NCBI GenBank assembly: GCA_021736985.1
Contig: JAIPEW010000004.1
Location: 62,001-126,000 of the forward strand
DNA: 64,000 bases
Direction: 5' to 3'
Source of the DNA: Clostridiales bacterium
GTDB lineage: Bacteria > Bacillota > Desulfotomaculia > Desulfotomaculales > VENG01
This document shows positions 5,340 through 51,437 of the stretch, one piece after another; the first letter of the stretch is position 1, and every line of letters begins with the position of its first letter. The notes beneath the pieces are model-generated. The model saw only the letters and a program-made list of their open reading frames with translations. It had not been told where the DNA came from and ran no database searches. The position numbers and the translations under genes are program-made.

Positions 5340-6612
5340 ATCTATCAAACCTTTCATCTAATAAACTGGCTGCTCTTTTAGCATTAATTTTTTCAATATC
5401 ATCTGGAATACTCTGCCCGCTGGTAACATAAGTAACCGGGCATCCCATTTCACACATGAGATTTAACATTGAACCAATAGTATCAGTTTCATCAAGCTTG
5501 GTAAATACTATTTCAGTAAATCCTGCCCTTCTGAAGTCCCTGGCAACACGCATTAAATCCCTGTCTTTAGTAGTAGCGCTCAGGCACAGCATTATATTTT
5601 GATCCTTTCCGGCAGCGTCTAAAAACGTTCTAAGCTCGAGAACCTGTCCAGAATTCTTGGAAGGGCGTCCCTCGGTATCTATAAATATATAATCCTTGTC
5701 CGAGTGTTTTTCTATAGCCTTTTCTAATTCACCAGGCGTCATAACAATTTCTACTGGAACTCCAATTATCTCAGCGTAATAATTCATATCTTCCAGCGAT
5801 CCAAAACGATGGTCATATAATGCGATGAGTGCAATTTCTTTTTCATAGAACACCTTGTTCAGGGTAGCTAATTTAACGAGCGTAGCAGTTTTTCCAACCC
5901 CCGTGGGCCCTATAAATGTCTTAATTTTACAATCATTTGTATCTTTATATGCACTTTTTAACAACTTTACAACATTATTCTTCAACATCAACTGTAAAAA
6001 ATCCTCTGTTTGATCATACACCCCTGTCTCACTGCCGTATGTATCTTCAATTCCTTCCCACAGTGAATCTATTACATTGTCATGAACTTCCATCTCTCTT
6101 AATAAATTTTTTATCCTCTCTATAGGGCTGCTCATACTCATTCCCTCCTGTTGATTAATAAGATTATGTACTATTGATTTAAACCAATCGTCTTTGCTGC
6201 TTTCCTCCGTTTCCAGAAGAGGCTCCGGCAGCCTGGAAGGGAGCAAACTCCTGGATATTACAGGTTCCTTATTAGTTTCAGACCGGCTGACATTTTTACT
6301 CTTATAATTATTTTTATGCTGCTGAGTACGCTCCACAAGCGCAGCTGCCGGCATTCTTTTTTTACTTTCCATGTGCTGCTCTTCCATAGTATTATTACTT
6401 ATTTGCTCCCTGTGTTGTTCCTCTGGCAAGAAATAATCCTTCTGCTCTTCCATTGCTGCAGTAACTGTTAATTTCCTGGGCCCGAAAAATTCTTTCACGT
6501 TCTTTCTCGGCGCTTTTTCAGAACTGACTATAACCGCATCAGGGCCCAGGTCATTTTTTATCTCGCTCATTGCTTCTTGCATATCAGATACAGTATATTT
6601 TTTAATCTTCAT
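5320..6612 (-). CDS. flhF: FlhF, SRP-type GTPase for flagellar placement
   Basis: This 430-residue protein has an N-terminal basic start MKIKKYTVSDMQEAM, a poorly conserved linker rich in Glu, Lys and Ser (about 50-150), and an SRP-GTPase NG domain. The P-loop is GPTGVGKTATLVKLA, followed by DTEGRPSKN and the TKLDET specificity motif. FlhF recruits early flagellar components to the membrane and is regulated by FlhG, encoded next. The DTEGR motif replaces the more common DTAGR. Confidence 0.93.
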   Translation of the reverse strand: MKIKKYTVSDMQEAMSEIKNDLGPDAVIVSSEKAPRKNVKEFFGPRKLTVTAAMEEQKDYFLPEEQHREQISNNTMEEQHMESKKRMPAAALVERTQQHKNNYKSKNVSRSETNKEPVISRSLLPSRLPEPLLETEESSKDDWFKSIVHNLINQQEGMSMSSPIERIKNLLREMEVHDNVIDSLWEGIEDTYGSETGVYDQTEDFLQLMLKNNVVKLLKSAYKDTNDCKIKTFIGPTGVGKTATLVKLATLNKVFYEKEIALIALYDHRFGSLEDMNYYAEIIGVPVEIVMTPGELEKAIEKHSDKDYIFIDTEGRPSKNSGQVLELRTFLDAAGKDQNIMLCLSATTKDRDLMRVARDFRRAGFTEIVFTKLDETDTIGSMLNLMCEMGCPVTYVTSGQSIPDDIEKINAKRAASLLDERFDRYERGEF

Positions 6613-31291: not shown

Positions 31292-31726
31292 CTATAATTC
31301 GCTGCAAACACCTGAACTCCATGCAATATTACAAGCTACTTCACATGCTCCGGCCGCCGGGCCAAAAGCTAAACAACCAACGCCACAAGCCATTACTCCG
31401 CTTAAGCTGCAGGCAAATTGTTCCCAATCCCATGCAACTCGGTATACATGTTCTGAAGCATAAGATGCGGAAGCAATTTTCTTTTGGCCGAGCTTAATCT
31501 TCTTATTGATATATTGCTTCATTTTCTGGTTTTTAGCTTTAAGTTCCTGGATAGATTGCGTCTTAGATTCTTTTAACCCGCTTTGCTTATAAACGTTAAT
31601 TGTGGCTTTATCACTGTTTTTTAAGTCCTTCCACTTAAAAGAGACAACACTAATTATTTCCCCATTATTACCATCTATATAGCCGTAAATCAATGTTTTC
31701 TTTTTGTTTTTGTTAATTTTGTGCAT
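31292..31726 (-). CDS. Halocin C8-like bacteriocin domain, downstream half of a frame-split precursor
   Basis: The C-terminal 45 residues contain six cysteines in a glycine- and alanine-rich hydrophobic segment (FACSLSGVMACGVGC, GACEVACNIAWSSGVC), the pattern of halocin C8-like peptides. A charged region (residues about 1-95) precedes it. The listed ATG has no clear ribosome binding site, and the open frame continues upstream of it to about 31799 with protein-like sequence (LKINGPAKVVKVEPKNII), inside the end of the preceding ORF. It therefore looks like the second half of one precursor split at an A7 tract. Confidence 0.65.
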   Translation of the reverse strand: MHKINKNKKKTLIYGYIDGNNGEIISVVSFKWKDLKNSDKATINVYKQSGLKESKTQSIQELKAKNQKMKQYINKKIKLGQKKIASASYASEHVYRVAWDWEQFACSLSGVMACGVGCLAFGPAAGACEVACNIAWSSGVCSEL

Positions 31727-35349: not shown

Positions 35350-35970
35350 TCATTTAAATAAATCAGGAGCATTTTCATACAAGTTTTGGCAAAAACCTAC
35401 TATTATATTAGTTAATATTTCCTCTTTATCTTGAGGTATTATTATCTTATGAGGACTATCAAAAGATATAATAGAAAGTACTTCATTTTTCTCATTAAAT
35501 ATTGGACAGCACAAGATAAATCTAGTATCACTAGTTTTATTTTTTTGAAATGACGTTAAATTAAAATCTTCTTCCGAATATTTTGCATCTCCTTCATAAA
35601 GTACTGCTTTAGCATTATAACATCTGCCAACTAACCCCTGAATTTCTATTTCTGGTTGAACCTGAAATTTTAAATCCTTTGTATTATCCGAAGTATTTGA
35701 TAAACCTTCAATATTTTTTATGATAAAAAACTTTTCAAGAGGCTTACCTTTAAAACTTAAATACAAATTTTTCATACAGGTAAATAGCCCTCTGTCTTCT
35801 ATCCATATTCTTACTGAAACAGAATCTTTTATTGTATCATTTTCAATAATACTTCCTAATGCTGAAAAAACAGAGTGCTTTAAAGTAATAATTAAGGCAG
35901 TTCTTTGCCACTCTATATTATTCTCCTGAGCGAGAATACGTATGTTTCCATACGCCGGGGCGGAGTAGCT
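35350..35970 (-). pseudogene. GAF-like domain protein without an identifiable start
   Basis: The frame encodes a GAF-like fold: VSVRIWIED, then GLVGRCYNAKAVLYEG, TRFILCCPIFNEKNEVLSIISFDSP and a final helix. The first ATG (35775) lies inside the domain and has no ribosome binding site, whereas the open frame continues upstream with protein-like sequence to a stop at about 35971. No ATG, GTG or TTG occurs in that extension, so the original 5' end appears to have been lost. The 54-residue gene downstream is probably cotranscribed. Confidence 0.55.
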
Positions 35971-36105: not shown

Positions 36106-36309
36106 TCACACCCGCACGTCCAGCCTGTTTCCCAGGTGGGGCGGGCTGGCCTGCTTGGCCTCGTTTCCCTGGTTTGCGCCCTCCATCATCTTGTCCACGA
36201 AGCTTCCGTTTTGCTCCGCCGTGTCCATGGCCTTCTTCATGACCGCCGTGCCCACGTTCTGCTGCAGCTGGGCCTGGCTCTGCATGATTGACGCCGCCGC
36301 TATGTTCAC
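36106..36309 (-). CDS. YjfB family motility-associated protein, intact copy 1
   Basis: This 67-residue protein (MNIAAASIMQSQAQLQQNVG, QNGSFVDKMMEG, ending HLGNRLDVRV) belongs to the YjfB family of small proteins, whose B. subtilis member is under SigD control. Function is unknown. A GTG start at 36309 follows GGAGGGTG. It is the second gene of a pair with a 79-residue helical protein. The DNA is visibly richer in GC than the surrounding accessory genes. Confidence 0.8.
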   Translation of the reverse strand: MNIAAASIMQSQAQLQQNVGTAVMKKAMDTAEQNGSFVDKMMEGANQGNEAKQASPPHLGNRLDVRV

Positions 36310-36324
36310 ATGTCACCCTCCTTC

Positions 36325-36564
36325 TTACTGGTTGTCCACCCAGGGCATCCTGGTTTTCTCGTCCAGTTCGTTGACTTCACTTTGCAGCCTCTGCAGTCGG
36401 TCGTTGATTTCCTGCTTCTTATCCTGGCTCAATTCGTTATCCCTGGCGTACTCGGCCAGCCCCCTCATCTTGCGAAGCCTGGTCTCGATTTCGTCCAGGG
36501 CTTTCATCCTCTTCTTAGTCCACTCCAGCTTTTGCCGCAGGTATTCTTCAGAGTAACTGTTCAT
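36325..36564 (-). CDS. 79-residue helical partner of YjfB, copy 1
   Basis: The protein is highly charged and predicted to be helical or coiled coil throughout (MNSYSEEYLRQKLEWTKKRM, ELSQDKKQEINDRLQRLQSE), ending in TRMPWVDNQ. It precedes yjfB by 15 bases. The family is not recognised. Its strict pairing with yjfB in every copy here suggests that the two proteins work together, perhaps as a chaperone pair or an accessory to flagellin. Confidence 0.7.
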   Translation of the reverse strand: MNSYSEEYLRQKLEWTKKRMKALDEIETRLRKMRGLAEYARDNELSQDKKQEINDRLQRLQSEVNELDEKTRMPWVDNQ

Positions 36565-36645
36565 ATGTATTCCTCTAATTTAATAAGTCATTATAAGCTA
36601 TTTTCATTTTAGCATAGCAACAGCACCTATTGTTTATTGTTTACC

Positions 36646-36671
36646 TGCCACAAGAAGCGTCCCCGTGGCAG
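36646..36671 (+). repeat. REP-like hairpin (TGCCAC...GTGGCA)
   Basis: TGCCAC and GTGGCA pair around AAGAAGCGTCCCC, which is a diverged form of the GACAAAAGAACCGTCCCC end. It lies 13 bases before the copied transposase 5' end and probably marks the other boundary of that insertion. Confidence 0.6.
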
Positions 36672-36683
36672 CCGGGCTGCAGG

Positions 36684-36843
36684 CATCCTCAAAAATAGTC
36701 TGCCGGTTCATACCCCGCATTATAATATGGTAAATGCCTGTTCTACTCTTTTCCCTCGCTCATCCTGGCATACTTTAATCACCCTGGTTCATTATACCAT
36801 TTCAACTAGTCCATTTTACCAGACAAAAGAACCGTCCCCATGG
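36684..36843 (-). mobile_element. 160-base relic of the RAYT gene 5' end with its REP-like end
   Basis: This segment matches 34925-35083 with only a few changes. It includes the first 30 or so codons of the transposase, its upstream region and the terminal GACAAAAGAACCGTCCCC at 36822. Nothing further of the transposase remains. It interrupts the yjfB copy at 36844. Confidence 0.85.
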
Positions 36844-36967
36844 CAGCCTTGTCCACGAAGCTGCCGTTCTGCTCCGCCGTGTCCATGGCCTTCTTCATGA
36901 GTGCCGTGCCCACGTTCTGCTGCAGCTGGGCCTGGCTCTGCATGATTGACGCTGCCGCTATATTCAC
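36806..36967 (-). pseudogene. yjfB copy truncated and fused to the RAYT relic
   Basis: A GTG start at 36967 after GGAGGGTG opens a frame identical to YjfB through NGSFVDK. It then runs into the REP-like end as AAMGTVLLSGKMD and stops at 36806, giving a 53-residue chimera. The last 26 residues of YjfB are lost. The ribosome binding site and partner gene upstream are intact, so the chimera may still be made. Confidence 0.8.
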
Positions 36968-36983
36968 GTATCACCCTCCCTTC

Positions 36984-37223
36984 TCACTGGTTGTCCACCC
37001 AAGGTACCCTGGTTTTCTCATCCAGTTCGTTTATTTCATCCTGCAGTTCATGCAATCTATCATTTACCTCTTGCTTCTTGGCCTGGCTAAGCTCGTTGTC
37101 CCTGGCATAACTGGTAAGTTCTTTCATATGATGCAATTTGATCTCGATTTGTTCAAGGGCCTCCATCCTTTGCTTTGTCCACTCCAGTTTTTGCCACAGG
37201 TATTCTTCTGAGTAATTATTCAT
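36984..37223 (-). CDS. 79-residue helical partner of YjfB, copy 2
   Basis: This copy (MNNYSEEYLWQKLEWTKQRM, ending TRVPWVDNQ) is nearly identical to the copy at 47805-48044 and less similar to copy 1, and its upstream 40 bases also match those at 48045-48084. It therefore reflects a recent duplication between the two flagellin loci. It precedes the truncated yjfB by 16 bases. Confidence 0.72.
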   Translation of the reverse strand: MNNYSEEYLWQKLEWTKQRMEALEQIEIKLHHMKELTSYARDNELSQAKKQEVNDRLHELQDEINELDEKTRVPWVDNQ

Positions 37224-40437: not shown

Positions 40438-40480
40438 CCTCCTTGTTATTTTGGTTTTAAGTGAGCATCCTTTCTCACTT
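40438..40480 (-). promoter_or_regulatory. Putative CsrA binding sites in the flagellin 1 leader
   Basis: On the minus strand AAGTGAG and CTCACTT form a seven-pair hairpin (40459-40480) whose loop is AAAGGATG, containing the CsrA core AGGAT. The Shine-Dalgarno AAGGAGG (40438-40444) lies 15 bases further on and carries a second GGA. This two-site layout matches the Bacillus subtilis hag leader, where CsrA blocks ribosome binding. Confidence 0.65.
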
Positions 40481-40542: not shown

Positions 40543-40617
40543 AAAAAAAGACGAGTTAATTTATTCATACTGTACCCGGTGTCCTACCGGTTTTTACAGT
40601 TAATAAATCAACTCGTC
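40543..40617 (-). ncRNA. Long stem-loop A with an apical AGGA loop, downstream of small csrA 1
   Basis: On the minus strand GACGAGTT (outer arm) pairs with AACTCGTC, continuing through ATTTATT/AATAAAT and ACTGTA/TACAGT. The tip CCGGT-AGGAC-ACCGG (40576-40590) presents GGA in a five-base loop, the preferred CsrA target. Seven T follow the 3' arm. It could be a terminator, an mRNA 3' end that sequesters CsrA, or a small RNA. It lies between csrA and the flagellin leader. Confidence 0.6.
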
Positions 40618-40656
40618 CGTGATTGATTAAAGTTATGTTGTTTTAAACACTTATAT

Positions 40657-40824
40657 TTAACATACTCCAGTATTTTCCTCATATATTTCCCCGCGGACAA
40701 TTCTAACGTCCTTAGGGGCATCAACAGCCAGTCTTAAATCTCCTTCCTGACTTCTTACTACTTTCACTTTTACATTATCACCAATCATTATATACTCTCC
40801 AGGTTTTCTGCCAATTACTAACAT
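40657..40824 (-). CDS. csrA: Small CsrA paralog 1 (55 residues)
   Basis: The protein reads MLVIGRKPGEYIMIGDNVKV, then GDLRLAVDAPKDVRIVRGEI, ending YEENTGVC. It keeps the CsrA fold residues, including Leu2 and the RNA-binding Arg44, but has only a seven-residue tail after the last strand; usual CsrA proteins have 61-75 residues. The start follows CAGGGAGG, which itself contains GGA and could be autoregulated. CsrA dimers repress translation by binding GGA hairpins. It is 53 residues identical in plan to the paralog upstream. Confidence 0.88.
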   Translation of the reverse strand: MLVIGRKPGEYIMIGDNVKVKVVRSQEGDLRLAVDAPKDVRIVRGEIYEENTGVC

Positions 40825-40851
40825 TATGCAACCTCCCTGTTAATAAAAAAT

Positions 40852-40941
40852 GACGAGTCTGTCTTGTCTCTTTTAAAGATGTTTGGCCAAAAAACATCTT
40901 TAGATAGCCGCATCCTGCAGCTTAAGACAAAACAACTCGTC
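40852..40941 (-). ncRNA. Long branched stem-loop B with an apical AGGAT loop, between the small csrA genes
   Basis: The outer arms GACGAGT and ACTCGTC continue with two one-base bulges through TTGTCT/AGACAA. Inside are two hairpins: AGCTGC-AGGAT-GCGGCT (40906-40922), which presents GGA in the loop in the best CsrA consensus, and AAAGATGTTT/AACATCTTT (40875-40901). T6 follows the 3' arm. The outer stem matches that of stem-loop A, so the two have a common origin. Confidence 0.6.
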
Positions 40942-41021
40942 CCTGATTTGTTTAATTATTTAATTCTATTATTATTATCGGTTATTTTAGGTTAAACTTT
41001 AGTCTTTTTAGACATTTTCTT

Positions 41022-41183
41022 TTATTTTTCTTCTTTTTCATGTAATTCCCCACGGACAATCTTAACCTCTTTTGGAGCATCAACTGCCAACCTCAAATCA
41101 CCCTCGTTGCTCCTTATCACTGTTACTTTTATTTTGTCATCTATCATTATATACTCACCCGGCTTCCTGCCTATAACCAGCAT
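41022..41183 (-). CDS. csrA: Small CsrA paralog 2 (53 residues)
   Basis: The protein reads MLVIGRKPGEYIMIDDKIKV, then GDLRLAVDAPKEVKIVRGEL, ending HEKEEK. It differs from paralog 1 at about a quarter of positions and keeps Arg44. The start is preceded by GAGGAGG. It is the first gene of the small csrA - flagellin 1 transcript. The 319 bases upstream (41184-41502) hold a possible promoter, TTGACT-18-TAACTT near 41260-41300, and nothing else that I recognise. Confidence 0.87.
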   Translation of the reverse strand: MLVIGRKPGEYIMIDDKIKVTVIRSNEGDLRLAVDAPKEVKIVRGELHEKEEK

Positions 41184-41502: not shown

Positions 41503-42903
41503 ATGATTAATATGAAAAAAACAAGTAGTAAGTACAATTACTGGCAAAGTGCCTTGCAGCAAAATGTTCCACGATCGCTTATTCAATATATAGATAAACA
41601 TTACCATGAACAATGGAATAAAGATCTTGCTGCTTTTATCATGCATAAGTTCGGCATTAGTATAACTACCGAGCAGCTCAGGTATTACGCGTCAAAACAT
41701 GGCCTGGTAAAAAACATAGACGAAGAACAAAAAGCCAGGTTATTAATTAAGAGATACAACATAGATGTTGATGATACAGTCATAAATAACGCAATATCTT
41801 TCATTAAAGATAATTCACAGCATTTATCAAACAATAAATTAATCAAAATACTTTGCAAAGATTATAATATAACAATAACTCCTGGCCAGTTAAGCAGAAA
41901 AATCAATCACTGGTTCGCTATAAAAAAAACTCGCAGTGCTTTAGCCCAGGGACACAAGCACACAATTGCAGCTTTAAAAGAAAGTTATAAAGCTAAACAC
42001 AATGAATTTCTTAAAGTCTTCTCCAATTACCCACAGGCAGAAACAGTAATTTTAACCAGTTTACTGGGAGATGCAGAGCTTAGCCCTGTTATCCGCGGGT
42101 ATAATGTATTTCGCGATCATCACAGTTCCGAACAATATGAATGGTTAAAATTTAAAACTGGTTTTCTACCTTCTGCACCTTATTTTACGATTAAAAAATA
42201 CGCCGACAGCTCTTTTTCCATAGTTTCACAATCCAATCCTTTTTTTAGTGAACTTGAACAACATTTCTACAAGCAATCTTCCCGGGAATATAAGAAAATG
42301 GACGGGAGGAAAAATCGTGAAAAATACCTTGACCAGACAGCACTTCAAATGTGTGAGGAAATTTTTATGGAGTACCCCTACCTAGCACTTTCTATCTTGA
42401 TCGGAGATGACGGCTCTCTAGTTGCTTCTTATAAGAAAAACAATGTTTATTTTTCTTATGTTATATATTGCCAGGGTTTTGCTGAAGAAATTGGGCTAGA
42501 ATTAAAAAAAATTATAGAAAAATCTACTGGAGTAGAACTATCATGTACCAATGTTTCTTCTGAATATGGAATACGGTTAAAAACAAACAAACTAAAAGAT
42601 ACCCTGCAAATAAATAAAATGATATTTCCCTATCTATCTAAAATTGGTACCGATAATTTTAAGAAGAAATATGACTTTAACTGGCATATCAAGAGGCTCT
42701 CCCAAAAACTAAATAAGAATTTATCAATGGGACAACCTAAGAATTACTGGACTACTCCTGAACTAAATATTGTTTATGAAGGGATTAAAAATAAAAAAGA
42801 ACCGGCAACAATTTATAAATTGTTATTAGCAGCAGGATTTAAGCGTACTTATTATGCAACTTATTATAAATACAAAGAATTATTATTTATAGATTCTAAA
42901 TAA
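41503..42903 (+). CDS. Free-standing LAGLIDADG-like protein with N-terminal HTH repeats
   Basis: This 466-residue protein has two LAGLIDADG-type helices, VILTSLLGDAELSPVIRG (about residue 185) and ALSILIGDDGSLVASYKK (about 305), each followed by homing-endonuclease-like sequence (YEWLKFKTGFLPS; FAEEIGLELKKII). The first 150 residues contain two similar helix-turn-helix-like units (KFGISITTEQLRYYASKHGL and DYNITITPGQLSRKINHWF). No intron or intein is around it. It may be a homing endonuclease or a DNA-binding relative. It is divergent from the csrA-flagellin transcript. Confidence 0.65.
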   Translation: MINMKKTSSKYNYWQSALQQNVPRSLIQYIDKHYHEQWNKDLAAFIMHKFGISITTEQLRYYASKHGLVKNIDEEQKARLLIKRYNIDVDDTVINNAISFIKDNSQHLSNNKLIKILCKDYNITITPGQLSRKINHWFAIKKTRSALAQGHKHTIAALKESYKAKHNEFLKVFSNYPQAETVILTSLLGDAELSPVIRGYNVFRDHHSSEQYEWLKFKTGFLPSAPYFTIKKYADSSFSIVSQSNPFFSELEQHFYKQSSREYKKMDGRKNREKYLDQTALQMCEEIFMEYPYLALSILIGDDGSLVASYKKNNVYFSYVIYCQGFAEEIGLELKKIIEKSTGVELSCTNVSSEYGIRLKTNKLKDTLQINKMIFPYLSKIGTDNFKKKYDFNWHIKRLSQKLNKNLSMGQPKNYWTTPELNIVYEGIKNKKEPATIYKLLLAAGFKRTYYATYYKYKELLFIDSK

Positions 42904-43383: not shown

Positions 43384-44619
43384 ATGAGTGAATACTTAAG
43401 TACAAAATACAAGAATGAGAAACTTGATAATACGGTAATAGACATAACCCATCAAGACATCTATGATCTTTATAACATGAATATTAAAGATAAAAAGGAA
43501 TGTGATGAAGTAACTCAGAGCTCATACCGTAATGAAAATTACTATGATCAATATGGTGATGATAATTGGAGACATGCTTTTTATAAAGAAGTTTTATATA
43601 GAGATCCAAAAACAGCTGGTTTTGTTATGCAATATCCTCATGGTAGGATTATTACTCAAGCTGAGAGAAATCACTATTATCGTGGAGAAAATAAAATATA
43701 TTTTTCTAGTGTTCCAAGTCTCACTAGAAAACTTAAACATTTTAAATCAACCGAAGATAGAGAGATTTATAGAATAATTGCAGATATGCGAATCGGAGAA
43801 TTTGGATTATTTCTTTATTCATTTAATTATGTACAGAATTGGGAAAAGAAATATGGTACGGTTCTTTTTGACGCTCTGGCTCAACACTATGGTCTAGAGA
43901 CTAATTGGCTTGATATAACGAATGATTTTAATGTAGCTCTATTCTTTGCAACTTGCTTTTTTGATCATAGTGAAAAGCGTTGGAAACCGTTAACTAAAAA
44001 TGAAACAGAGGATGATGAAAATACAAAATATGGAATGATATTTCATTGCCCTCAATGGCAAGTTAGCATGAGAAATACTACAAGTACATTGACTAATCCG
44101 GGGAAAAATGTAGAAAGAATTTTGGAAAACAATGTGTTACCAATTGGATTTCAACCGTTTATGAGATGTCATATGCAGTATGGATACGGAATAAAAATGG
44201 ATGAAGAATATCCATTACAACAGGATATATACTTTGAAAAACTTAGATTCAGACATGATGAGAAGTTATCTAAACATGTATACGAGATGATGGATCAAGG
44301 TAGGCTGATATATCCCCATGAAGGTTTATCAAGTTTTGAAGATATAATTAATCAGATTCGGGCAGCTACAGTATTTTCGGAAGAGGCATTCAATTATGCT
44401 TTTGAGAATAATAACTATTTTGAAGATCCAGAACATTGTCGTAGATTAATTCAAGGTACGAATATAATTGGAAAGCCAATTTATATTGGGAAAGATCTTC
44501 ATCCAATTAAAATATCACGACAGAGAAGGAGAAAGCTTGATAGAGAGCATGCAGAATTTTCAATAGAGGAAGCATATGGAATAAAACTATCTACAAGATA
44601 TACCGCATACCCTAAGTAA
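43384..44619 (+). CDS. FRG-domain protein, putative defence or effector protein
   Basis: This 411-residue protein carries the FRG domain motifs HYYRGENKIYFSSVPSLTR (about residue 98) and ALAQHYGLETNWLDITNDFNVALFFAT (about 165). FRG domains occur in phage-defence and toxin-like proteins and have a fold related to ADP-ribosyltransferases. The gene starts at an ATG after GGGGAGGG and is visibly AT-richer than the flagellar genes, which suggests transfer. Its presumed partner upstream is a pseudogene. Confidence 0.75.
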   Translation: MSEYLSTKYKNEKLDNTVIDITHQDIYDLYNMNIKDKKECDEVTQSSYRNENYYDQYGDDNWRHAFYKEVLYRDPKTAGFVMQYPHGRIITQAERNHYYRGENKIYFSSVPSLTRKLKHFKSTEDREIYRIIADMRIGEFGLFLYSFNYVQNWEKKYGTVLFDALAQHYGLETNWLDITNDFNVALFFATCFFDHSEKRWKPLTKNETEDDENTKYGMIFHCPQWQVSMRNTTSTLTNPGKNVERILENNVLPIGFQPFMRCHMQYGYGIKMDEEYPLQQDIYFEKLRFRHDEKLSKHVYEMMDQGRLIYPHEGLSSFEDIINQIRAATVFSEEAFNYAFENNNYFEDPEHCRRLIQGTNIIGKPIYIGKDLHPIKISRQRRRKLDREHAEFSIEEAYGIKLSTRYTAYPK

Positions 44620-45668: not shown

Positions 45669-47443
45669 TTAAGTTTCCGAATCAACAAGCCAAGGCTCAG
45701 TAATGACTTTACTTGAAAATTCACTATAAGTTTCTTTGTTACTTAAATATGTTGCTTCAACAAAACTTTTAAATCTAACTAATGATTCTTGTATATCACC
45801 TTGATTTTTTAATCCTTTGTCTAAAGGTCTTTTTAATTCATATTTAAAGGGTATACAACATTGAACAATTGATTCCCACAATTTTTCATATTCTGCAAGT
45901 TCCTTTTGTTCATTGAAACGTAATAAAAATTTATTTGTAATATTTTTATATAATATTGTTTCCATACAATTACCAATAGCTACCATTAAAATATATATCG
46001 AACCACGAAATCTTAAAAAGGATAATATTTCCTTTTCTCCAGTCGTCAAAGAATTTTCTTTCTTCTCTTTTATCATTAAAGAATTTTTTATATTTGTAAT
46101 TGCTTGATTTAAAGAGTATACAAATAAAAGATGACTAGCATGAGTACTCTCATTAAACAGTTTAGAATATAAAGAATCAGATTCCCAAATATTTGATTTT
46201 TGATTATATGCTATACCAGGAATTTGATGAAACGCAGCTAAAGATTGTGCTACCGTATCAGATGGTATAAGATTTGAGGGCCTTGAAATTGCGTTTTCTG
46301 CCCCACCTCTACGAGTACCAAGATATGTAACATTCGGATGATATTGCGTAAATTCTCTCCTTAATCTATTTTGCACCCCATCAGTACTTCTAAAATCAGC
46401 TGCTTTCATTTTGTTTTGACTATTATTATAACGTACTATTTCTTGTACTATTTCTGGGCTTGTACACTTTATAAAACGTGTTTGTACCATAGCATTTTCA
46501 TTGGGTATACTATCCAAAGTACCAATTGCGCCTGTTGTTTGTGCACCATTTACTATTGAAATTCCATTAATTTTAATCTGCTTTTTATTCTCTTTATCTA
46601 TTATTTCAAAATCATTTACTAATGCAGTAATTCCATTATTAAAAGCCCAAAACTTGTCAGGATGCTGTATTGTTGATTGTTTAATTCCATGATTAATATT
46701 TGCATCACTACGGCGACTTCCAAGGTAATCACGAACATTTGCCGAAAATATAGATTTTCCATATTTATTAAAAATTTCATAAATCCACATGGCCGAAACA
46801 GCTGTTGAAAAAGCTTTCCATTGGTCCCTTTCTAACTCATATCCTCCTGGCACTTCAATGATAAATTCATCTCTCACTAAAATAGGGGTTTTTATAGCCT
46901 CATACCATTCTTCAAGAGTTTCCATTCCTATTTCTATAGCACGTATTTCATCACAATTTGAATCGTCATATTTGTCTTTAATTGAAATCTTAACTGTTTC
47001 CTCAACAGAAGCAAGTTCATTTCTAACGTTACTTGATTCAGGAAGATTATGTACATACCAAAATTCAAGTGTTCTTATATCACCCTGTCTTAAAGCTTCC
47101 CTTAGTTCAACAGCAGCAGGGGTTAAGTTTTCTGGAAGTTCATCTGAATTCCTTGAAAGTAACCATGCAGCTGCAGTATTTAAGTCAGAAGCTTTATTTG
47201 CAGGAGCAGATTTTTTCTCTTTTTCTGTAAAATAACCTTGAGCTACAATGGCTACACCTTTTTCACTATCTACATATACTAAATCACATTTTTTATCGTT
47301 ATTCCCATCAGTCAAAGCTTGCGAAGCAACAGCATGAATATCGTTAATATTTCAAGAGCAAAGAGCATCAATGCATTTGAACCATAAACTTTAAGGTCGT
47401 CCCTTGCTTCAAATGCTGCTTGAAATGAATATTCTGAAGTCAA
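45669..47443 (-). pseudogene. AIPR-family abortive infection gene with a frameshift near its start
   Basis: The AIPR domain is clear: FSANVRDYLGSRRSDANINHGIKQ, FWAFNNGITALV and INGISIVNGAQTTGAIGTL. AIPR proteins provide phage resistance. An open frame of 548 residues starts with a TTG at 47315 that has no proper ribosome binding site. The true 5' end lies upstream in another frame: TTG at 47443 after AAGGAGG, encoding TSEYSFQAAFEARDDLKVYG and NALMLFALEI. The two frames are 128 bases apart, so one or two bases changed near 47343-47350. Confidence 0.78.
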
Positions 47444-48185: not shown

Positions 48186-50555
48186 CTATTGTAAAAGCTT
48201 GAGTACGCCTTGCGGCATCTGATTTGCTTGGGCCAACATGCTCTGTGCTGCCTGACTAAGGATATTCTGCTTGGTGAAGTTCATCATTTCTTTGGCCATA
48301 TCTGTGTCGCGAATACGGGATTCGGCTGCGGTTAAGTTCTCAGCAGATGTTCCCAAATTGTTAATTGTATGCTCGAGACGATTCTGGTATGAACCTAACT
48401 TAGAGCGTTCTGCAGAAACTGAAGAAATTGCATTATCAATTGCAGTAATTGCGGCAGCAGCATCATCAGTAGAAGTTACATTTAAGCCATATTCTACTCC
48501 TGTATTATTGGTTCCGTTAGTAACATTTTTGCTACTGGAAAAGCCAGATTGAACAGTTGAAGAACTTATTTCAAGGGCTTCACTACGCATATCGGAAATA
48601 GTGATTGACATAGCTTGGTTTTCATTAGATCCAATCTGGAACACCATTTCTGCACCTTCCTGATCAGTACCAGTACCAGACTTTCCAGTCAAACCTAAAG
48701 TCCCGGCAGCATCGTCATTAGGATGAGTATTTACGTTAATTGTACTGCTAGTTCCGGTAGAACCACTCGTGATATTAAATTTACTATCACTATAAGATAC
48801 GCTTACATCATCAACAGTACCCGTGGCATTGTTAATAGCACTTTGTACCGCCGCTGCAAGAACATTCATATCCGAATAAGTTCCTTCCTGAATGCTTGCA
48901 TTTACTGATTCACCATCTACATCAATAGAAAGGGTTCTATTACCATCTGAACCACTAGTTTCAGTGGCGCTATCCAAACTCAATTCCGCGGCAGCACTTC
49001 CAGCAATGTTGTTAACGTCACTATCTACACCAGTTGAATCACTGGTAATTCTAATTTCTCCACTTTCATTAGATGCAGTAGCAGCTGTGCCTTCAGATGT
49101 AAGCTGATTATTAATCTCACTTACAATGGCATCTGCATCATCGTAGTATCCATTACTTAAAGTAATAGATTGAGAAGCTCCATCCAAATCAAAGGTTAGG
49201 GTTTTATTAGCTGCCTCCCCTGTATAAGTTGTATGGTTAGCAGTTGAACCAAACAATTCATCCATAGCATTACCGCCTGTTACTGAAATCTGAGATCCTT
49301 CCCCTGCGGTAAAAGTGCCACTAGTATCAGTAACTTCCAGTTTTAACGTATTATCTACGTCAAATGAAGCAGTTACCGCATCAGCACCAAATGCGCTATC
49401 TAGTTGAGTTTGAATATCACTGAGCAAATCTGCCCTCGCTGTACTAGTTCCACTATTACCATCATAGGTGGCATTGGATAATGTAATATTTTGTTCGTTT
49501 ACAGTTCCATCACTATCAACAACTTTAACTGTTAGTTCGTTATTGCTTGCGTCAATAGCAATATTTCCACTATTTAGACCCGAGTCTGTAATAGATACAT
49601 TACCTGTGGTATAGCCGTTAGTCTCATCATGAATCCAGGCGTCACCCTCATCAATGCCTTCAGTGTAACTTGCTGTGCCTATTACATCAGCTGCAAAATT
49701 ACCACCTACGACTTCAAACTTATTACTTTCATCTGAACCACGGTCAACTGCTGTAAATGTCAAGTGGTTACTTGAGTCAGTTCCGACTGTGATTTTTCCT
49801 GAACCAAGTTCAGTATTAATTTTGGATTGAATATCTGCTACCAAATCGCTTAAACCGTTACCAGTACCATGGTCAGCTACAGTCATTTGGATCTCATGTT
49901 CAGAGCCCCCATAATTAAATGTTAACTCATTGTTTGTAGCGGTAATGTTAAGTTTAGTTGAGGCATCTACACTGCCCGTTGTAACCCACGGACGGTCTTT
50001 GGGAGTGCTTCCAGTGTAACCGGTATCTGTAATTTCCCCTCCCTGAGCATAACCAGAAGTTTTTGTATCATCTATTGTAATAGACCCTGTAGTGTTAACA
50101 CCTGAAACCTCAGCAGCTTTAGCCGCTACGAAATCAAAAGAACCATCCATAAGAGTCTTGGTGTTAAATTGTGTCGTGTTGCCAACACGATTTATCTCTG
50201 AAGTTAACTGGTTCATTTCCTTTTGAATTTCATTTCTGTCATCTTGAGTATTAGTTTCATTAGAAGCCTGAACAGCTAACTCGCGCATACGTTGTAAGAT
50301 AGAATGTGTTTCACTCATTGCTCCTTCAGCAGTCTGAATCAATGAAATTCCATCCTGTGCATTACTCTGAGCCTGTTCTAAACCACGAATCTGCCCCCGC
50401 ATCTTCTCAGAAATCGCTAAGCCAGCCGCATCGTCGGCTGCACTGTTGATGCGCAGTCCAGAAGACAGCTTTTGCAATGAATTCTGCTGCGCCTGGCTGT
50501 TCTGTTGCAACTGACGATACGTGTTTAGTGCTGCAATGTTGTGATTAATTCTCAT
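48186..50555 (-). CDS. hag: Flagellin 2 (large, with four IN-like repeats)
   Basis: This 789-residue flagellin shares the D0/D1 ends of flagellin 1 ([39 protein letters not shown]). The centre is unrelated in detail and contains about four tandem flagellin-IN-like units, each with an [12 protein letters not shown] or [12 protein letters not shown] start and a DIQSKIN or EINNQL helix. It lies directly downstream of fliW and csrA with its own sigma28-like promoter and a leader with several GGA hairpins. It is probably the main CsrA-controlled flagellin. Confidence 0.95.
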
Positions 50556-50559
50556 TATT

Positions 50560-50703
50560 CATTCCTCCCTGAATGATAATAATTTGCATCCCTGCATTTG
50601 TTCCGTTATTCAATTTTTGGTATCCTAAAACAGCTATTTTAATAGCTGTTTCAGGACATGAAAAAACAATCTTCCCTGAGTAATTCTCTGCGTCCCTGCA
50701 AAG
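50560..50703 (-). promoter_or_regulatory. Flagellin 2 leader with multiple putative CsrA sites
   Basis: On the minus strand three hairpins present GGA in the loop: CTTTGC-AGGGAC-GCAGAG (50686-50703), TGCA-GGGA-TGCA (50585-50596), and CATT-CAGGGAGG-AATG (50560-50575), where the loop is the Shine-Dalgarno itself. A fourth GGGA lies at about 50673-50677. A 34-base inverted repeat at 50623-50656 separates them. This resembles the multi-site repression known for Bacillus hag. Confidence 0.6.
50623..50656 (-). repeat. Perfect-stem inverted repeat in the flagellin 2 leader
   Basis: AAACAGCTATT and AATAGCTGTTT form an 11-pair perfect stem, extended by TCCT/AGGA with one mismatch each. No T tract follows, so it is not an intrinsic terminator. 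It may stabilise the mRNA or hold apart the GGA hairpins. Confidence 0.6.
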
Positions 50704-50784: not shown

Positions 50785-51006
50785 CTACAGAAATCCTTTT
50801 AATTTATCTACAGCATTTTTATCACCGGAAGCAGCAGACAGGTTTTCTTGTTTTACTTCCTTATAAAGTTCGCTGCGCAGTATGGTGAGGTCTTTGGGGG
50901 CGTCAATGCCTATCTTTACGAAGTCTTCCCCGGTTTCTAGAATGGTGACTTTTATATCGTCACCGAGCATTATTTCCTGGTTTTTCTTGCGAGAGAGGAC
51001 CAGCAT
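50785..51006 (-). CDS. csrA: CsrA, full-length translational regulator
   Basis: This 73-residue protein (MLVLSRKKNQEIMLGDDIKV, then IGIDAPKDLTILRSELYKEV) is a canonical CsrA with Arg44 and a 20-residue tail. Its start overlaps the fliW stop, as in most Firmicutes and Spirochaetes. It represses flagellin translation and is antagonised by FliW. It differs clearly from the two small paralogs near 41 kb. Confidence 0.95.
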   Translation of the reverse strand: MLVLSRKKNQEIMLGDDIKVTILETGEDFVKIGIDAPKDLTILRSELYKEVKQENLSAASGDKNAVDKLKGFL

Positions 51007-51437
51007 TATGCTCCCTCCCCGCCAGATACTTTTTCCTTTATGTTTTCAGGAAAAAGCCTGTGTTTTGTGGTATATATAGAACCGTTGAGAATAACCTGCT
51101 TGCCTTTTTTTAGCTTCGGGTTAATTATTATTGGGGCCACTAAATTGGCCGTGGTATCAGCAGGATTATCCTCCGGTATGGTGATTGTTGTTAAAAGCAC
51201 TACTTCAGAAGGTTTTTCTATCTCCAGTTCTTCTATTACTTCATCAGGAATGTTAATGTCGTATTCCTTGAAGAATTGGAACGGGTTAACTACCAGCAAA
51301 GATACTTCCGGTCCATCCAGCGATTGCAGGTGCTGAATATCCCGGGTACCTTCCACGGGCAGTAATATAAAACGGTGTATATTTTCAAAACCCGGTATAC
51401 CACCGGGAAAGTTTATTACTGTGTTTTGAGATTCCAA
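51006..51437 (-). CDS. fliW: FliW, CsrA antagonist and flagellin sensor
   Basis: This 143-residue protein has the FliW sequences INFPGGIPGFENIHRFILLP and VNPFQFFKEYDINIPDEVIEEL, with the length of the family. FliW binds either CsrA or flagellin; when flagellin is exported, FliW is freed and inhibits CsrA. The order fliW-csrA-flagellin is the classic partner-switch arrangement. Confidence 0.95.
   Translation of the reverse strand: MESQNTVINFPGGIPGFENIHRFILLPVEGTRDIQHLQSLDGPEVSLLVVNPFQFFKEYDINIPDEVIEELEIEKPSEVVLLTTITIPEDNPADTTANLVAPIIINPKLKKGKQVILNGSIYTTKHRLFPENIKEKVSGGEGA

Follow-up and report, generated by a model that had tools for sequence, protein, structure and literature searches.

A terminator-like RNA element with two mutually exclusive hairpins beside short csrA and flagellin genes of Bacillota

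CsrA, antitermination and an extra flagellin locus

In antitermination of the LicT type, an RNA-binding protein stabilises a hairpin whose sequence extends into the 5' arm of the intrinsic terminator downstream. A similar arrangement is proposed here for a short element, T, found beside csrA and flagellin genes, with the differences that the protein would be CsrA and not a PRD-domain antiterminator, that the scheme has no sugar signal, and that the site is a GGA loop, as carried by T, and not a RAT hairpin. LicT, SacY, SacT and GlcT are reviewed in PMC7430163, which also covers hag repression and FliW. CsrA is described mainly as a translational regulator, and GGA in a small hairpin loop is its described target (PMC4347634). 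At pgaA, CsrA remodels the leader RNA and promotes Rho-dependent termination (PMC6582626); both there and in our scheme CsrA alters a leader RNA and transcription termination, but T carries an intrinsic-like terminator that CsrA would prevent from acting. Like the FliW-CsrA-hag system of Bacillus subtilis, our locus combines CsrA and flagellin with a GGA hairpin in the leader of the latter, but the CsrA considered here is short, without Asn55 and the longer C-terminus, and the putative T attenuators are extra. The sponge RNAs CsrB, CsrC and RsmZ also display GGA in hairpin loops, but in large numbers (18 sites in CsrB, 9 in CsrC; PMC4347634), whereas T has one or two GGA hairpins, lies in operon leaders and has no Rfam match. 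Among the open-licence papers listed by our searches, no title or abstract opening described a T-like element or a short csrA beside flagellin.

The window (the whole 64-kb stretch of DNA analysed) encodes on its minus strand, in 5' to 3' order, csrA1, hairpin T1, csrA2, hairpin T2 and flagellin 1 (Table 1). A preliminary description had reported two short csrA genes with Arg44 and two GGA-tipped hairpins with common outer arms upstream of this flagellin. Pfam matches and alignment agree with the former, and both proteins belong to the CsrA/RsmA family by profile (70.5 and 75.9 bits against a Pfam cut-off of 27). The hairpins are present as written, with arms GACGAGT/ACTCGTC common to T1 and T2 and AGGA in both apical loops. 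An ordinary fliW-csrA-flagellin set also lies in the window (51437-48186). Profile search of the genome gave three csrA matches and one fliW match, and the third csrA, with fliW, precedes flagellin 2.

Table 1. Features of the short-csrA locus and of the comparison set in the window.
Feature	Position	Strand	Evidence or remark
csrA1 (short CsrA, 53 aa)	41022..41183	-	Pfam CsrA E 1.1e-19; Arg44 present
Sigma-D-like promoter TAAA-15-ACCGATAA, upstream of T1	40975..41001	-	10/12 positions match the presumed consensus
Element T1	40846..40952	-	Sequence, fold, R1 match E 3.1e-4 though T1 is absent from the model
Parts of T1	strand A ~40952-40945; GGA1 40942-40940; apical AGGA 40916-40913; strand C 40858-40852; T-run 40850-40845	-	
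csrA2 (short CsrA, 55 aa)	40657..40824	-	Pfam CsrA E 2.3e-21; Arg44 present
Element T2	40544..40628	-	Sequence, fold, R1 match E 4.4e-13 (T2 is among the model's sequences)
Parts of T2	strand A 40628-40621; GGA1 40618-40616; apical AGGA 40585-40582; strand C 40557-40550; T-run 40549-40543	-	
GGA-tipped hairpin in flagellin 1 leader (AAGTGAGAAAGGATGCTCACTT)	40459..40480	-	Shortly before the flagellin start
Flagellin 1, 710 aa	38294..40426	-	Pfam Flagellin_N E 6.7e-49, Flagellin_C E 4.4e-30
fliW (comparison set)	51006..51437	-	Pfam FliW 138.2 bits; sole fliW match in genome
csrA3, ordinary csrA adjoining fliW, 73 aa (comparison set)	50785..51006	-	Asn55 present
Flagellin 2 (comparison set)	48186..50555	-	ORF; N-terminus same as flagellin 1 by eye

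Several neighbouring genes deserve mention. Divergent from csrA1 is a 466-aa ORF (plus strand, 41503-42903) without a Pfam match. Between the two flagellin loci lie an FRG-domain protein (43384-44619, plus strand, E 6.1e-12) and an AIPR protein (45669-47315, minus strand, E 1.1e-35); proteins of both kinds occur in defence systems. A tandemly repeated pair of small genes occupies 36106-37223 on the minus strand. Its first gene matches YjfB_motility (36106-36309 and 36806-36967, the latter a shorter match) and its second (36325-36564 and 36984-37223) codes for 79 aa with a borderline match to Flagellin_N. A 144-aa protein (minus strand, 31292-31726) with a cysteine-rich C-terminus and no Pfam match gives the impression of a bacteriocin precursor.

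Two helices that share one strand

T1 and T2 follow one plan: strand A, a small GGA loop, strand B, an apical stem with an AGGA loop, strand C and a T-run on the transcribed strand. Strand B, the 5' foot of the terminator, can pair with A or with C, but not with both at once, and a second GGA (GGA1) stands at the 5' foot of each element within the possible competing small hairpin. The A:B helix is often only 4-6 bp, with variants that include ACTC/GAGT, AATC/GATT, GCTC/GAGC, GGTC/GACC and AGTC/GACT. The apical loop lies 27 nt (T1) or 34 nt (T2) downstream of the A:B loop, and T1 has an additional side hairpin. Predicted energies are -41.8 kcal/mol for T1 (z -6.10) and -33.3 kcal/mol for T2 (z -5.46), with no shuffle of 200 as good in either case. 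These features, with the conservation and covariation described below, support T1 and T2 as copies of a conserved RNA element with two mutually exclusive hairpins, one of them terminator-like with a U-run.

Identity with a known Rfam RNA was set aside: neither the window nor T in 8 loci gave a match at the gathering threshold, and the sub-threshold matches to T, to snoRNA and plant miRNA only, are implausible. A leader peptide behind AGGAGG was also set aside, as a conserved start codon was not seen by eye. A further stable hairpin (TTTAAGCATCATAATGACC...GGTTATGAGTGCTTAAA) lies between T2 and the flagellin leader (minus strand, 40529-40491), and several relatives also have some hairpin at the corresponding place.

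A search that did not require GGA gave 127 terminator-like hairpins around 70 short csrA copies. Fixed-register GGA at the foot occurs in 80 of them, of which 64 also carry GGA in the apical loop and 16 do not. Under the register rule, GGA must lie close to the foot, the loop must begin with A, and the first A position must be C or T. Foot GGA together with at least three of four A:B pairs is found in 74/127 hairpins, against 3/541 in 52 control loci, and apical GGA in addition in 63/127 against 2/541; the controls cover entire loci in both orientations, the tested set csrA flanks only. An alternative foot hairpin of at least 4 bp, with no GGA required, accompanies 86/127 hairpins near short csrA and 224/536 control hairpins, and its loop holds GGA in 61/86 versus 18/224. 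This GGA-independent count replaces an argument that we withdraw, namely that no G of GGA1 is ever replaced by A, which was circular because the rows had been picked for GGA.

Alignment A2 was built from elements picked for GGA at foot and apex (53 of 54 unique elements aligned, T1 omitted for length), and its covariation statistics ignore the kinship of the rows, which are related sequences. On this measure, B:C with the apical stem is paired in 93.7% of cells, with a covariation of 0.688 against at most 0.134 when slid (0/500 shuffles). The A:B helix is paired in 81.7% of cells, with a covariation of 0.403 against at most 0.103 when slid; strand A lay outside the hairpins originally searched for, yet it covaries with B. 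None of 500 shuffles equals A:B for percentage, score or the number of cells with both sides changed; the remaining two of five measures do not rise above the shuffles (both-side-changed pairs, 500/500; further pair types, 379/500). The signal comes mainly from one column pair, which is fourth in rank among 2657; of the other A:B pairs the best ranks 220, and the rest, nearly fixed or weak, lie beyond 1200. The pair at the first A position is partly selected, because the register rule demands C or T there.

Pairing of each A with its own B is higher than in any of 2000 reassignments. This also holds when each distinct five-letter B start is represented by a single row (20 rows): standard pairs number 68 against at most 67, and Watson-Crick pairs 60 against at most 56. 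In 26 cells where the terminator helix B:C wobbles, A is Watson-Crick to B in 22 and a copy of C in 3, so A follows B and is not a mere repeat of C.

Folding of the growing transcript gives A:B a predicted probability above 0.5, at lengths that do not yet include C, in 58 of 80 elements, compared with 0/80 for a shuffled arm (mean of ten), and below 0.05 in 80/80 once C is present. The 22 elements in which A:B does not reach 0.5 include T2 (fixed-register probability 0.27, against 0.63 for T1), for which a bulged A:B version with a GGA loop is predicted. In T1, a different local fold is predicted to overtake A:B before C. The models thus predict that A:B forms first and is lost once C is made.

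Short CsrA proteins and the distribution of T

Is the short CsrA another FliW-controlled regulator? The median length is 56 aa for short CsrA and 78 aa for the FliW-type protein. Asn55, a FliW contact (PMC7829508), is present in 47/47 FliW-type CsrA and in 2/70 short ones, 25 of which end before position 55; the control csrA was read in 47 of 52 control loci, and the adjoining fliW was checked for part of them. The RNA-binding Arg44 is invariant in 13 aligned short CsrA and present in 68/70 of the larger set. The Asn55 contact and longer C-terminus of FliW-controlled CsrA are not features of the short type, which, lacking the contact, should therefore be insensitive to FliW. Judged by sequence, short CsrA should bind RNA yet escape FliW. 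The 70 copies were kept from 78 csrA readings, after removal of three FliW-type copies, L145-L147 and two duplicates. Stops flagged inside csrA copies proved, in the Paenibacillaceae copies that were read, to be natural ends.

A search with csrA2 led to 19 loci. A short csrA (50-61 aa) lies directly before flagellin in nine (L034-L042), as a tandem pair in L034 and L040; the hosts are Clostridium tagluense, Paenibacillus methanolicus, P. cremeus, two Pontibacillus, a Halobacillus, a Marinisporobacter MAG and two Bacillota MAGs. L043 and L044 have a short csrA without flagellin within the stretch examined, and in L045-L052 the best match is to csrA3, with fliW beside seven of the eight. One Pontibacillus flagellin gene (L042) contains a group I intron (Rfam, 85.3 bits; locus positions 5957-6270) between two parts of the flagellin C-terminal region. 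By profile, the short type occurs in 5/398 genomes of a phylum sample (at least 87 bits; next best 67.5), in 15/245 genomes of the family of P. methanolicus and in 21/194 of the family of C. tagluense, where 23 passed the cut but two, G735 and G766, have longer proteins of FliW type and were not counted. Samples of the order of G148 (3 genomes) and the family of G447 (9 genomes) led no further. In all 10 genomes that were searched in full there is a lower-scoring csrA as well (35.8-61.6 bits).

The preliminary description had named absence of the hairpins from relatives as grounds for abandoning its idea; they are conserved, and are found again in bacteria that are only distantly related. Model R1 of T was run on 45 of 47 short-csrA genomes (G451 and G452 left out) and matches 43, missing G413 and G284; it matches none of the 7 relatives that possess a single csrA. 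The E-values of R1 are approximate, and stricter filters applied in searches across more than 40 genomes. R1 matches 4/398 genomes of the phylum sample, three of the five with short csrA plus G365 (a 41-nt plain hairpin), and 25/194 in the C. tagluense family, including 21/21 with short csrA. The remaining matches in that family are G774, G805 and G849, with a divergent csrA before flagellin, and G835, a 50-nt plain hairpin. The co-occurrence of T and short csrA is only partly evidence for action, because the two are linked on the chromosome. In the window, two weaker R1 matches (187-277, E 0.072; 50661-50685, E 1) are probably chance. The same probably holds for one more of the window's 220 terminator-like hairpins, at 35366 on the plus strand, which has foot GGA, A:B and apical GGA and is absent from the R1 matches.

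Five copies of T lie away from short csrA. One precedes fliD (L182), one precedes a TPR-glycosyltransferase gene (L183) and two precede other flagellins (L184 and L186; the L186 match is weak, 28.7 bits, and lacks apical GGA). The fifth (L185) follows a GCCGATAT site and has no assigned gene. These copies suggest action in trans. In three Clostridium-family loci (L199, L200, L201), flagellin is preceded by a divergent csrA with 38-49% identity to csrA1 or csrA2; these loci contain five T elements, four of them without the second GGA.

The place of T in the operon was read from motif matches, using what we take to be the sigma-D consensus. Scores of at least 10/12 occur in 29/59 csrA upstream regions (7.3% of shuffles) and in 2/40 csrA-flagellin gaps (3.4% of shuffles). 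Of these 29 sites, 25 lie upstream of the T nearest to csrA, none downstream of it, and 4 have no registered upstream T; in three loci a promoter-like site lies between two T's. T thus lies between promoter-like site and regulated gene, a position expected of a leader attenuator and not only of a csrA 3' end. The site in the window lies between csrA1 and T1, so that T1 would lead csrA2 and not only tail csrA1; a best score as high as this (10/12) is reached in ~7% of shuffled upstream regions.

T often occurs both upstream and downstream of csrA. The preliminary idea that the hairpins represent csrA mRNA 3' ends was therefore too narrow: T does follow csrA, but it also precedes csrA and occurs in the five csrA-free places, and we reject the reading as 3' ends only. 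Of 40 csrA-flagellin gaps, 21 have a registered T, with some more seen by eye (for example in L136); the other 19 have none registered, the T count being a lower bound, and 5 of these have another GGA hairpin of at least 5 bp without a terminator (for example CCACTTAAGGACGAGTGG in Paenibacillus). A GGA hairpin stands 20-60 nt before the flagellin start in 32/40 gaps, including that of the window. The hairpin in the window is likely a translational CsrA site, and such a hairpin at the flagellin start may repress translation.

A candidate CsrA-responsive attenuator and its alternatives

We propose, with a probability of about 0.6, that T1 and T2 are two copies of one transcription attenuator controlled by a protein: CsrA on the nascent A:B hairpin would prevent termination and favour transcription of its own gene and of flagellin. 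The anatomy of the switch is supported by the two covarying helices; CsrA binding, the direction of control and the effect in cells are what we infer. As the polymerase enters T, A would pair with B and show GGA in a small loop, as covariation supports and folding predicts. With nothing bound, C is predicted to take B from A, burying GGA1 in the long hairpin before the U-run, and transcription would stop. Since A:B exposes GGA1 and B:C hides it, a CsrA that prefers GGA loops should favour A:B, keep the terminator foot open and allow read-through. The second RNA pocket of CsrA might sit on the apical AGGA loop. T1 would then gate csrA2 and flagellin 1, and T2 would gate flagellin 1 again.

A dedicated, FliW-insensitive CsrA that favours its own transcript would create positive feedback, and at the separate GGA hairpin ahead of the flagellin start translation would stay blocked until CsrA becomes scarce, by analogy with hag of Bacillus subtilis. 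We give even odds to a broader reading, that T represents an apparently undescribed RNA switch family of Bacillota. FliW-insensitive CsrA would antiterminate intrinsic terminators, switching on its own operon by positive feedback and opening flagellin (sometimes fliD or a glycosyltransferase gene) to transcription while a second CsrA site holds translation, in an all-or-none switch for extra flagellin. If true, flagellin control would gain a transcriptional arm in the form of an intrinsic terminator that responds to CsrA, and short csrA copies beside extra flagellin genes would have a role. T would also be a compact test element, in which the GGA foot and strands A and C could be mutated and repaired one at a time.

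The preliminary description left the choice between decoys and attenuators open. Its attenuator half is favoured by the T-runs, the exclusive covarying helices, the post-promoter place and the csrA-free copies before flagellar genes. As decoys, terminated leaders and csrA 3' ends, with two GGA hairpins each, would soak up CsrA and relieve flagellin translation while termination remained constitutive. Many elements do have two CsrA-type sites (the 63/127 above), and csrA adjoins its own candidate sites. However, GGA1 is hidden in the terminated form, which is poor decoy design, the A:B pairing is kept though a decoy has no need of it, T lies between promoter and gene, and some elements (4/5 in the L199-L201 set) lack the apical GGA. 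We consider the decoy reading unlikely.

Should CsrA instead promote termination, binding of the apical AGGA would aid the long hairpin, giving negative autoregulation and less flagellin. The AGGA does cap a covarying stem, and pgaA provides a Rho-dependent precedent (PMC6582626), but this scheme leaves the A:B hairpin and its GGA loop unexplained, and CsrA bound there should act against the terminator, so we regard it as quite improbable. We think equally little of a switch for another factor, with a ligand other than CsrA, or of an A:B helix that merely delays the terminator. A:B would be a kinetic delay in any case, yet small hairpin loops with GGA are what CsrA is described to bind (PMC4347634), and T goes with short-csrA genomes. 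Ordinary terminators with chance GGA are very improbable: T looks terminator-like and 18/541 control hairpins have foot GGA in register, but both A:B and B:C covary, and the foot counts with and without the GGA requirement set the hairpins beside short csrA far apart from the controls.
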